DNA of 64,000 nt from Bradyrhizobium retamae. Its GTDB lineage: Bacteria; Pseudomonadota; Alphaproteobacteria; Rhizobiales; Xanthobacteraceae. Made by a program: the position numbers and the translations under genes. Positions within the stretch are counted from its first letter, which is position 1; each line of letters starts with the position of its first letter. The notes under the pieces are model-generated. The model saw only the letters and a program-made list of their open reading frames with translations, made no database searches and was not told where the DNA came from. Shown piece by piece: positions 29,390-32,756 of the stretch. The stretch lies in contig NZ_LLYA01000159.1 of assembly GCF_001440415.1 (NCBI RefSeq), positions 124,001-188,000 of the forward strand, in the 5' to 3' direction.

Positions 29390-30583
29390 ATGCGAGGCAA
29401 GGCCGAGATCGATCAGATTCTGCGTCAGAAATGCGAGGCGAAGGAAATTCCCGGCGTGGTCGCGATGGCGGCTACCGGGGGTGAGGTGATCTACCAGGGC
29501 GCGTTCGGCCAGCGCGACCTTTCCAAGGACGATGCCATTACCGCCGACAGCGTGTTCTGGATCGCCTCGATGACCAAGGCGATTACGACCGCGGCCGGCA
29601 TGCAGCTCGTGGAGCAAGGCAAGCTCTCGCTCGACGAGCCGATCGGAAAAGTGCTGCCCGACCTCGCCAGCCCGCAGGTGCTGGAAGGTTTCGACGCCAA
29701 TGGCGAGCCGAAGCTGCGTCCCGCGACGAAGCCGATTACGCTGCGTCATCTCATGACCCACACCGCCGGCTTCGCTTACAACATGTGGAGCGAGGTGTGC
29801 GCGCAGTATCTCGACAAGACCGGAACCCCGGCCATCACCACCTGCCAGAACGCCGCGCTGAAGACGCCGATCATGAGCGAGCCCGGCACGCGCTGGGAAT
29901 ACGGCACCAATATCGATTTCGTCGGCAAGGCGGTGGAAGCGGTGAGCGGCAAGCGGCTCGATGCCTATTTGCGCGACCACATGTTCACGCCGCTCGGCAT
30001 GAACGACACCGCTTTCAAGATCACCGACTCGATGCGCCAGCGGCTGGTCGGCATGCATGCCCGCGGCGCGGACGGCTCGCTGGCGCCGATCCCGTTCGAG
30101 CTGGAACAGGAGCCGGAATTCCACATGGGCGGCGGCGGCCTCTACGGCACGGCGGCCGACTACATCAAGTTCACCCAGATGATCCTCAGCAAGGGCCGCG
30201 GCAACGGCAACGAGGTGCTGAAGCCCGAGACGGTCGCGCTGATGAGCCAGAACCACATCGGCGATCTCACGATGGGCAAGATGGTGACGGTGGCGCCGAT
30301 CTACACCAACGACGTCGATCTCTATCCCGACATCGTCAAGAAGTGGGGGCTCTCGTTCCTCATCACCACCGCCCAGACGGCCGAGGGGCGCAGCGCCGGC
30401 AGCCTGGCCTGGGCCGGTCTCGCCAACACCTATTTCTGGATCGACCCGGCGCGCGACGTCGCCGGCGTCATCCTGATGCAGTTGTTGCCGTTCGCCGATG
30501 CAAAATGCCTGGAGGCCTTTGCGGGGTTTGAGCGCGGGGTGTATGCCGGGCTCGATGCCGGCAGCGGCCAACGGGCGGCGTAA
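29390..30583 (+). CDS. Serine hydrolase, class C beta-lactamase / esterase EstB family
   Basis: A 397-residue serine hydrolase of the beta-lactamase fold. The SxxK motif is SMTK with Ser60 and Lys63, and the second motif with the catalytic Tyr is WEYGTN. The third (KTG/HxG) position reads WAG in SLAWAGLANTY, as in many esterases of this family. There is no signal peptide, so a periplasmic beta-lactamase role is unlikely; cytosolic esterase or lactone hydrolase activity fits better. The strong SD GGGAGG supports this start. It is followed by 1.17 kb of noncoding repeats. Confidence 0.9.
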   Translation: MRGKAEIDQILRQKCEAKEIPGVVAMAATGGEVIYQGAFGQRDLSKDDAITADSVFWIASMTKAITTAAGMQLVEQGKLSLDEPIGKVLPDLASPQVLEGFDANGEPKLRPATKPITLRHLMTHTAGFAYNMWSEVCAQYLDKTGTPAITTCQNAALKTPIMSEPGTRWEYGTNIDFVGKAVEAVSGKRLDAYLRDHMFTPLGMNDTAFKITDSMRQRLVGMHARGADGSLAPIPFELEQEPEFHMGGGGLYGTAADYIKFTQMILSKGRGNGNEVLKPETVALMSQNHIGDLTMGKMVTVAPIYTNDVDLYPDIVKKWGLSFLITTAQTAEGRSAGSLAWAGLANTYFWIDPARDVAGVILMQLLPFADAKCLEAFAGFERGVYAGLDAGSGQRAA

Positions 30584-30711: not shown

Positions 30712-30798
30712 CGTCATTGCGAGCGAAGCGAAGCAATCCATCGTGCCGCATATGCGGAAAGGTGGATTGCTTCGTCGCTGTCGCTCCTCGCAATGACG
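30712..30798. repeat. Inverted repeat (CGTCATTGCGAGCG type)
   Basis: CGTCATTGCGAGCGAAGCGA continuing to AGCAATCCA is mirrored by TGGATTGCTTCGTCGC and ending CTCGCAATGACG, with small mismatches and a central spacer of about 20 bases containing GCATATGC. Elements with these arms are widely scattered in proteobacterial genomes. Confidence 0.75.
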
Positions 30799-30829
30799 GC
30801 TGAGATCGATTCGCATTCATCTACTGACA

Positions 30830-31380
30830 TGCTTTCGCGATCTCGCGGCGCGTTCCGCCCGAGCTTTGCCCTTATCTTTCGCGCCCCAGAAAACAGAGGG
30901 CGCAGGGAAGACCGGGTGCGCGCTGCACCCGCGGTCTCGTGTGCAATTGCGCAAAAAGAACGCGCACACGAGCATACAGGTCCAGCGGAGAGCATCCGGC
31001 CTTCCCTGCGCAATGGTTTTACGGCGTACTTCGCGCTCTCCCTGGTGTGCGAATTCCTTTAGCCACCATCATCCGCGGATTGATGGATGGAGCTGGCCCG
31101 GTCGGGCCGGCACATCCTCCGCGGACTTGACACCAGCCACGGGTGCCAGGACCACACGACTTGGCCGTACGCGACACGCTCTTGCCAGAGGCCTCGACGG
31201 GCTTGGTACCCATCCGCCGAAGTCCGGCGAGAAGCGCTTTAGCATCGGTCGTCTGCGTGCCGTCCCTTCGCTCACGGACTCACAAGAGCCCGCCCTGCGA
31301 CGACGTTTGCGCGCCCGACGCTGCCGCGTCCACCGCACCCCGCCCCGCGTTTAGTGACGATCGCGAAACGCCCCTCTGAA
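30830..31380. repeat. Putative dispersed repeat of about 0.55 kb with a Y-shaped core
   Basis: This block has no credible gene, yet its sequence matches, from memory, a recurring noncoding segment in Bradyrhizobium and Rhodopseudomonas genomes that is often mis-annotated as tiny hypothetical proteins. Its core, 30900-31011, is an ordered inverted-repeat structure: an outer stem (30900-30910 with 31001-31011) enclosing two hairpins (30911-30935 and 30936-30972). Boundaries are approximate. Copy number needs a genome search. Confidence 0.55.
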
Positions 31381-31460
31381 GTGGGACGGGATGGCGCAAG
31401 TTGTAGGACTGATTTGGGTCAATCGTGAAGCGAATTATTTTTGCGGGAGGGGCGACTTTT

Positions 31461-31483
31461 GATTTGCGCGAGAGGGCAAATCA
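31461..31483. repeat. GATTTGC hairpin element
   Basis: GATTTGC and GCAAATC form a hairpin with a nine-base loop, nested in a wider pair CTGATTTG (31409-31416) and CAAATCAG (31477-31484). The T-run CTTTT lies on its left side, so on the minus strand it could terminate transcription from the PfkB kinase gene. Confidence 0.55.
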
Positions 31484-31754
31484 GTGCTGAGGCGATGTTG
31501 CCGCGAGCCGGCGCACAGGCCCGAACGCATTCACCGCTCGTTGGCCTCGCCCCGATCGAACTTGTAGTCGGCAGGAAGAATCCAATTGAGGGAGGCCAAG
31601 CGCTCTGCGCTTGATCGGAAGCCCGCGGACCAGCTCGTCGGGGCGATATCCGTACCGGCTAGGTCTTGCAGACATCCACGACTTGCACGCCCTCACTGAA
31701 GAAAGACGTGGACGGCGGGTCAAGCCCGGCCATGACGGGTGGAGCGGCCGTGGC

Positions 31755-32756
31755 CTACACCCCCAACCCGTTCTGCCCCGCCAGCTCCTTCAGCGACACC
31801 TGCGGCCGTGCCCCGATATGCTGGATCACCTCGGCTGCTGCCAGCGCGCCCAGCCGGCCGCACGTTTCATGGCTCGCCTCACGCACAAGCCCGAACAGGA
31901 AACCGGCAGCGAACAGGTCGCCGGCGCCGGTGGTGTCGACGAGCTTTTCGATCGGGAACGCCGGCGCCGCAACCATACCATCGGACGACACCACGACGCA
32001 GCCCTTCTCGCTGCGGGTGACGACGGCGAGTTTTGTGTCGGTGCGGAGCTGCTTCAGTGCGCCGTCGAAATCGGAGGTCTGGTACAGCGAATGCAGTTCG
32101 GCCTCGTTGGCGAACACGAGATCGACCGTGCGCTTACGCATCAGGTCGAGAAACTCGTCACGGTAGCGATCGACGCAGAACGAGTCCGACAGCGTCAGCG
32201 CCACCTGTCGGCCGGCGCCATGGGCGATGCCCGCGGCCTTGACGAAGGCTTCCTTGGCGTTTTGGGGATCCCAGAGATAGCCTTCGAGATAGACGATGCG
32301 GGAGGCCGCAATCTGCGCCTCGTCGATGTCGGATGGATTAAGGGCCTGCGCGGCGCCGAGATAGGTGTTCATGGTGCGCTCGCCGTCCGGCGTCACCAGA
32401 ATGTAGGAGCAGCCAGTCGCGGGGCCGTCGGACGCGGCTTTGGTTTCGAAGGCGACGCCAGCGGCACGGATGTCGTGGGTGTAGAGGCCGCCGATCTGGT
32501 CGCTCTTGACCTTGCCGACATAGGCGGCACGGGCGCCGAAATTGGCGATGCCGACAATGGTGTTGGCGGCCGATCCGCCCGACACCTCCGTCGCCGGCCC
32601 CATGTCGCGGTAGATCGAGGTGGCGCGGGCCTCGTCGATCAGCGCCATGCCGCCTTTGGTCATGCCGTGGTCGGCCAGGAATTTCTCATCGGTTTGTGCG
32701 AAGACGTCGAAAATCGCATTGCCGATAGCGAGAACGTCGTATTTTGCGTCAGTCAT
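31755..32756 (-). CDS. PfkB family carbohydrate/nucleoside kinase (adenosine kinase-like)
   Basis: A 333-residue ribokinase-fold kinase. It starts MTDAKYDVLAIGNAIFDV; the substrate segment VSGGSAANTIVGIANFG and the C-terminal PfkB signature DTTGAGDLFAAGF, with the catalytic Asp and the anion hole, are present. The NTYLGAA segment and the general layout are those of proteins annotated as adenosine kinase in alphaproteobacteria; substrate is inferred. I chose the ATG at 32756, because the longer upstream frame covers a repeat element and lacks similarity. Confidence 0.9.
   Translation of the reverse strand: MTDAKYDVLAIGNAIFDVFAQTDEKFLADHGMTKGGMALIDEARATSIYRDMGPATEVSGGSAANTIVGIANFGARAAYVGKVKSDQIGGLYTHDIRAAGVAFETKAASDGPATGCSYILVTPDGERTMNTYLGAAQALNPSDIDEAQIAASRIVYLEGYLWDPQNAKEAFVKAAGIAHGAGRQVALTLSDSFCVDRYRDEFLDLMRKRTVDLVFANEAELHSLYQTSDFDGALKQLRTDTKLAVVTRSEKGCVVVSSDGMVAAPAFPIEKLVDTTGAGDLFAAGFLFGLVREASHETCGRLGALAAAEVIQHIGARPQVSLKELAGQNGLGV

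Follow-up and report, generated by a model that had tools for sequence, protein, structure and literature searches.

A dispersed intergenic unit of Bradyrhizobium as a candidate gene for a large structured non-coding RNA

The HEARO/OMEGA RNAs of the IscB/IsrB elements are large, structured and dispersed, and are often found without a protein gene. OLE, ROOL and GOLLD are further large RNAs found by covariation; PMC12286853 gives the function of GOLLD and ROOL as unknown and locates the GOLLD genes in phages and prophages, frequently close to tRNA islands. Nearer to the bacteria treated here, the available passages of PMC5082802 describe Br-REP1 and Br-REP2, dispersed intergenic palindromes of the same bacteria, and mention, among results given as data not shown (Hahn et al.), that Br-REP2 is surrounded by a larger repetitive element in this group of bacteria. 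The same passages report the BjsR/Bjr sRNAs, some of them with RpoD-type promoters, of which BjsR5, 6, 7 and 10 occur in 2-4 imperfect copies. MITEs are short non-coding units that are present or absent at orthologous sites.

In this study I analysed a 64,000-nucleotide stretch (the window) of contig NZ_LLYA01000159.1 from Bradyrhizobium retamae, a member of an important soil and symbiotic genus. With a probability of about 0.65, a unit in this window belongs to an undescribed family of genes for large structured non-coding RNAs; the genes disperse as cassettes, with copies under selection, and the RNAs probably act in trans. Like the HEARO/OMEGA RNAs, its predicted product is large and structured, but relaxed Rfam scans of 3 and of 10 loci gave only sub-threshold matches and one tRNA outside the RNA; no IscB/IsrB/TnpB-type nuclease was recognised by eye among the flanking proteins of L117-L135, and a transposase-like protein adjoins L124. 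With OLE, ROOL and GOLLD it shares the covariation, whereas it lacks an Rfam match and is present in tens of chromosomal copies per Bradyrhizobium genome. In the window, 0 families of Rfam 15 exceed their gathering score, which rules out a known Rfam family and therefore also the Rfam Bjr sRNA families that had been suggested for comparison. The BjsR/Bjr sRNAs differ in their lower copy numbers, and are set apart here by description, not by sequence. From Br-REP1 and Br-REP2 the unit differs in being more than 10 times longer; Br-REP1 has 0 matches in the window at up to 3 mismatches, and a 16-nt piece of Br-REP2 has only two matches, at chance level (1083 and 24335), none of them in the unit. 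Because the tested Br-REP strings are absent from the unit, I do not equate it with the larger element around Br-REP2; by eye, a Br-REP-like sequence abuts the 3' edge of some copies in the complete genome of a relative (G368). The unit departs from MITEs in its RNA covariation and constraint, and in having no visible terminal inverted repeat or target duplication. No published description was found in the open literature searched by sequence words and by topic, although one may exist elsewhere; the accessible part of PMC4842269 names no repeat.

As the earlier note had assumed, the surroundings are free of genes, with no codon-usage gene call between 29390-30583 (plus strand) and 31755-32756 (minus strand). 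Its estimate of about 0.55 kb for the repeated segment is slightly small, as is seen from the first line of the feature list below. Within the genomes G368 and G232, 28 of the 40 best paralogue pairs end between -308 and -334 and between +53 and +70 around the core. In the order of the predicted RNA, the features of the window copy are:

30834..31493, minus strand: whole dispersed unit (RNA gene and upstream region, 0.5-0.66 kb); six orthologues match from 30834 and stop at 31446 (G031) or at 31486-31497 (the other five), and their flanks differ.
31400..31429, minus: promoter-like pair, -35 TTCACG (31424-31429), -10 TACAAC (31400-31405), spacer 18; 8/12 consensus positions, shuffle p 0.22, not significant.
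~31392 down to ~30834, minus: predicted RNA, with approximate ends.
31338..31390, minus: P1 hairpin at the RNA 5' end, with the conserved loop motif GATCGTCAC (plus strand GTGACGATC, 31354-31362); helix 1 of the full-length alignment A3, 88.2% paired, four pairs with double changes.
31330..31336, minus: 5' strand of P2, GCGGUGG in the RNA, from alignment A3.
31037..31038, minus: site occupied in other copies by an IS110-family element or its end, intact in the window; placed by comparison of copies, good to 1-2 bases.
31010..31016, minus: 3' strand of P2, CCAUUGC in the RNA, which closes the central domain; 7 pairs, 99.6% paired in 35 copies.
30895..31016, minus: core with a three-way (Y) junction, covariance model R1, 133.4 bits on the minus strand.
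30998..31011, minus: 5' arm of the outer stem; 14 pairs with the 3' arm.
30936..30972, minus: hairpin C, CUCGUGUGC/GCACACGAG; 9 pairs, 99.2% paired in 44 Bradyrhizobium-type copies, four pairs with double changes.
30914..30930, minus: hairpin B, GGGUGC/GCACCC; 6 pairs.
30900..30913, minus: 3' arm of the outer stem (GCGCAGGGAAG plus ACC); the same 14 pairs, 99.8% paired in 32 cores, four with double changes.
30882..30900, minus: short hairpin after the core; helix 21 of A3, 81.9% paired, one pair with a double change.
30842..30863, minus: 3'-terminal hairpin, CUCGGGCGG/CGCGCCGCGAG; helix 22 of A3, 88.5% paired, six pairs with double changes.

All segments of the Y-shaped structure that drew attention to this locus are present: GCGCAGGGAAG at 30900-30910 is the reverse complement of 31001-31011, GGGTGC (30914-30919) is complementary to GCACCC (30925-30930) within 30911-30935, CTCGTGTGC (30936-30944) is complementary to GCACACGAG (30964-30972), and TTGCGCAA is located at 30947-30954. 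The 122-base core (30895-31016) has folding z-scores of -6.2 on the plus and -9.2 on the minus strand, with 0 of 200 shuffles reaching the observed value on either strand. However, the lowest-energy fold of this single core is not the Y but one long hairpin, on both strands. Copies were compared in core-only and anchored alignments rather than in whole-locus alignments with flanks. The first (A1, the basis of model R1) holds 44 Bradyrhizobium-type cores from 59 loci with a core match, of which 15 were excluded as truncated, duplicate or near-identical (L018, L024-L033, L035, L037, L041, L054); the duplicates L024, L026 and L029 were also left out of a further comparison. The second (A4) holds 32 cores selected for diversity, 19 from other genera and 13 of the Bradyrhizobium type.

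Under the R1 structure with its 37 pairs, 96.4% of the cells in A1 are paired, and 62 cells show double changes as compared to 20 in shuffles, a count that here and below tallies sequences, not events. The 7 doubly changed pairs of A1 are reached by 18 of 500 shuffles, and all but one of its covariation measures are clearly above the shuffles. In A4, 99.8% of the cells are paired and 56 cells are doubly changed (18.6 in shuffles); cells paired, double-change cells and the covariation score exceed all 500 shuffles, while the remaining two of the five measures, doubly changed pairs (6 vs. 5.6) and pair types (13 vs. 12.3), do not. Covariation is present in the outer stem and in both hairpins, and the substitutions between copies preserve the stems rather than break them, in line with the proposed selection for structure.

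The possibility that the core is one long imperfect hairpin, built on the helix ACCUGU/GCGGGU, derives its appeal from the energy calculation and from the 44 Bradyrhizobium-type copies, where the region of this helix (helix 2) is 91.8% paired. It appears rather improbable once other genera are considered, as all 19 non-Bradyrhizobium cores are unable to form three of its six pairs, and this mispairing rules it out as a family-wide fold outside Bradyrhizobium. Hairpin B of the Y, on the other hand, is paired at all six positions in 32 of 32 cores, with double changes at two of them (G-C to A-U and U-A to C-G). The wider family thus decides for the Y as the predicted fold, and in Bradyrhizobium, where both folds are possible, they may exist as alternative states or as a switch.

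The Y is conserved across the family, but it is only the 3' core of a larger predicted RNA of the minus strand. The alignment A3 comprises 35 full-length copies, selected for diversity, in 755 columns, and its 119 pairs in 22 predicted helices are 90.8% paired. Pairs changed on both sides number 52, as compared to 30.0 in shuffles (sd 2.9) and 17-22 when slid; double-change cells number 297 vs. 96 in shuffles, and all five covariation measures exceed all 500 shuffles, in a test that favours the structure, since it was predicted from A3 itself. Compensatory changes of the kind seen in structured non-coding RNAs are thus present beyond the controls over the full length. Hairpin C is only 70.2% paired in A3, because its columns are shifted (misaligned) between groups. 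P2, with the consensus GCGGUGG pairing with CCAYYGC, varies on one side only in A3, and the last two bases of its 3' strand can alternatively extend the outer stem. Most copies whose upstream sequence is long enough carry the loop motif GATCGTCAC of P1, at about 190, 270 or 340 nt ahead of the core. A full copy would be a 0.5-0.66 kb intergenic cassette with a promoter position, encoding an RNA some 0.4-0.56 kb long. In this RNA the 5' hairpin P1 with its conserved loop would be followed by a central domain that varies in length and is closed by the long-range helix P2, by the Y core, and by two 3' hairpins.

RNA tolerates G.U pairs, and a DNA palindrome has no reason for a strand preference. 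When the outer stem and hairpin C of A1 are read as minus-strand RNA, the departures from Watson-Crick pairing are 56 G.U (one pair supplies 30 of these) and 6 A.C, and in A4 they are 18 and 0. The minus (RNA) strand is the more stable one in 43 of 44 copies, with a mean advantage of 10.3 kcal/mol. R1 scores the window core at 133.4 bits on the minus and 59.8 bits on the plus strand, and at each of the 22 places in the B. retamae genome one strand reaches 79.6-140.6 bits and the opposite strand 46.9-60.2 bits. The predicted product is thus an RNA of the minus strand, and a plus-strand RNA is ruled out by the asymmetry of G.U over A.C together with the model scores. The earlier note had left the choice between a small RNA and a mobile element recognised as folded DNA; as the departures are G.U on one strand, the RNA is favoured, although at 0.4-0.56 kb with 22 predicted helices it is not small. 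A DNA-level palindrome of the REP, ERIC or MITE kind, recognised as a cruciform or as single-stranded DNA and without a functional RNA, would account for a palindromic, intergenic, high-copy sequence that often adjoins REP-like palindromes and is the target of an IS110-family element, much as REPs are reported as targets of several insertion sequences in the available part of PMC1525189. However, I consider this explanation to be most implausible, as it does not predict one-sided G.U counts of 56:6 and 18:0, covarying helices spanning 0.5 kb, or the consensus promoters that other genera have at a constant position ahead of P1.

As the earlier note proposed, the segment is a dispersed Bradyrhizobium repeat and not a single-copy sequence. 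A DNA search found 52 matching pieces in the B. retamae genome, and R1 places the unit at 22 locations there, one of them inside the window. The complete genome of G368 contains 54 copies, whose better strand scores 100.9-133.7 bits, besides a single weak additional match. By DNA search, 37 of 40 congeneric genomes match, with copy counts that are lower bounds as about 20 candidates were scored per genome. Searches over 40 genomes had stricter filters, at the cost of weak matches. Within the GTDB family, R1 finds the unit in 49 of the 149 genomes sampled and in 17 of 47 sampled genera; some of these genomes have just 1-2 matches. A sample of the order gave 6 positives among 199 genomes, all of the own genus, one same-family genome without a match, and 0 matches in the 192 genomes outside the family, a status taken from the sort order of the listing, in which 173 were not individually displayed. 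Among the matches listed, most of the named records that carry the P1-loop pattern belong to Bradyrhizobium, besides Afipia, Rhodopseudomonas and various MAGs. The P1-loop motif is also observed in one record entitled Frankia sp. RB7 and in MAGs that bear the names of other groups (L265, L225, L264 and others), where contamination or misnaming is possible. Five genomes of genus g123 (G260, G299, G320, G338 and G354) have 19-24 mostly weak R1 matches each, with best E values of 6e-7 to 2e-9, and these are perhaps a divergent high-copy subfamily. No phage record matches and plasmids yield one weak partial match, which speaks against phage or plasmid cargo. Separately, the P1-loop pattern occurs in two IMG/VR contigs (L316, L317), possibly prophage flanks.

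Comparison of orthologous sites, with orthology resting on one or both flanking genes, shows that the window site is occupied in B. retamae and in six further genomes (G038, G424, G023, G459, G031 and G393). In G039 the copy lacks about 280 bp at the RNA 5' end, in G232 it is interrupted at the IS110 site, and in G454, G435, G391, G389 and G033 no match to the unit is found, with a spacer as short as 105 bp in G033. Similarly, the copy at L006 is missing from G001, G003, G004 and G010. Occupied and empty orthologous sites are what characterises MITEs, and as they differ between species the unit disperses; new copies would arise at new sites. Truncated copies exist, and identity between paralogues in G368 reaches 97%. 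Inspection of 22 copies by eye showed neither a terminal inverted repeat nor a target duplication, the spacers being too different for exact empty-site joins. Despite its 54 copies, G368 has no match to RVT_1, so this reverse transcriptase is not needed today; nor is there a positive association, as RVT_1 is found in 15 of the 49 genomes with the RNA and in 38 of the 100 without it. These two observations rule out a SINE-like retroposon driven by RVT_1 or a reverse-transcriptase partner.

Constraint was assessed in seven orthologues of the window copy (21 pairs), leaving out G039 with its lost 5' part. The 74 core positions paired in R1, the disputed helix included, differ in 12 of 1554 comparisons (0.8%), as compared to 6.8% for unpaired core positions, 8.0% for the rest of the RNA, 13.6% upstream and 23.5% in the 3' part. 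At fourfold-degenerate sites of the neighbouring gene, the five genomes measured show 10-26% difference from B. retamae, with G023 and G459 lacking a count as their flank is unalignable. Most orthologues of the window copy thus appear to be under strong constraint, which is not expected of a dead insert. Gene conversion is a caveat to this, yet the orthologues keep the same core variant.

Alternatively, the unit may be a selfish mobile element whose RNA fold serves its own spread only, without benefit to the host, comparable to group II introns, OMEGA/HEARO RNAs or a SINE-like retroposon. The occupied and empty sites and the near-identical paralogues fit such an element just as they fit a dispersing RNA gene; the truncated copies add to this, and the two broken copies (G039, G232) among nine window-site orthologues count against a host function. 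I nevertheless regard a purely selfish element as unlikely, since most orthologues keep their stems at 0.8% difference where fourfold sites reach 10-26%, RVT_1 is absent from G368 and not positively associated with the unit over 149 genomes, and neither terminal inverted repeats nor target duplications were visible by eye.

The unit is presumably transcribed. I tested 68 rows for a sigma-70-like promoter before P1, each against 200 mononucleotide shuffles, and counted as significant those reached by at most 5% of them, which applies to 15 rows. Outside Bradyrhizobium 11 of 18 rows pass, corresponding to 10 of 16 distinct loci; their promoters match the consensus at 10-12 of 12 positions (p 0-0.025), and the -10 element ends 8-10 nt before a fixed point near P1; L131 has a perfect TTGACA/TATAAT pair, and 6 of the 16 distinct copies fail. 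In Bradyrhizobium only 4 of 50 rows reach p <= 0.05, roughly chance level, and this, together with the 8/12 match of the window promoter (p 0.22), counts against a family of RNA genes with their own promoters as the best reading.

With respect to genes, the unit is intergenic throughout: in a set of 104 cores that are distinct in sequence but include some orthologues, none shares more than 20 bases with a called gene. That the segment is easily mistaken for tiny genes, as had been suspected, agrees with its wealth of open frames. These are somewhat longer than in shuffles (median 130 vs. 109 amino acids, 93 copies), which counts against a non-coding RNA, yet no reading frame is common to eight orthologues (one partial), stops being present in five (G393) or six (the other seven) of the six frames. 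This rules out a protein-coding repeat, and recognition of the unit would clear spurious small-gene annotation. A cis-acting leader, attenuator or 3' UTR structure of the neighbours would suit the intergenic location, and where an upstream gene was called it points toward the unit in 42 of 64 cases and away in 22 (40 copies have none in reach). However, such a role is very improbable in view of the next downstream gene, which is on the same strand in 48 of 99 copies and on the opposite one in 51, of distances to the neighbouring gene from about 110 nt to more than 1000, and of the unit's own promoter position. Because of this promoter position, the varied gene neighbours and the lack of a preferred orientation to the next gene, I infer that the RNA of the proposed family acts in trans, either within a ribonucleoprotein or as an RNA-only particle, and not on its neighbours; no partner protein was found. 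L117 and L121, and likewise L124 and L133, are copies from different genera located beside the same kind of gene, as judged by eye. Of the 54 copies in G368, 36-39 have the RNA running in the direction of replication (p 0.02-0.0015, with the terminus set at 3.3-4.0 Mb), which is only suggestive. In 17 of 20 stretches sampled there, the GC skew is consistent with an origin near coordinate 1, where a GyrB-like frame is found, and a terminus near 3.8 Mb.

The original observation was correct, and its interpretation mostly right but too small. If the unit functions as a large RNA, one of the very common non-coding sequences in Bradyrhizobium genomes has been overlooked, for which a concrete candidate with consensus, strand, approximate ends and promoter is now available; if it is selfish, it would be a structured-RNA mobile element without a visible enzyme. 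Both possibilities are relevant to the question of why large ornate RNAs are maintained in bacteria. Tentatively, and with more doubt than belief, it may represent a new class of large bacterial RNA, in which the gene itself is a promoter-carrying, dispersing cassette that spreads without reverse transcriptase and is domesticated copy by copy, so that in the Bradyrhizobium/Rhodopseudomonas/Afipia group an abundant particle, whether a ribonucleoprotein or an assembly of RNA alone, is produced from tens of related RNA genes in each genome.

The site at 31037-31038, intact in the window, carries the end of an IS110-family element at the identical position and orientation in 6 of the 22 copies in the B. 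retamae genome (L012, L013, L016, L018, L021 and L022), and the same site is used in two other genomes, at L080 (G181) and L082 (G232). In L012 a broken transposase start is present (DEDD_Tnp_IS110, E 1.1e-11), and several contigs end at this site. It looks as if an IS110-family element targets the putative RNA gene site-specifically. Unrelated REP-like palindromes (GTCATTGCGAGCGAAGCGAAGCAATCC, GTAGGGTGGGTGGAGCGAAGC and Br-REP-like ones) are often located within some tens of bases past the RNA 3' end, as at L075, L091, L104, L105 and L334, and in the window at 30712-30800.
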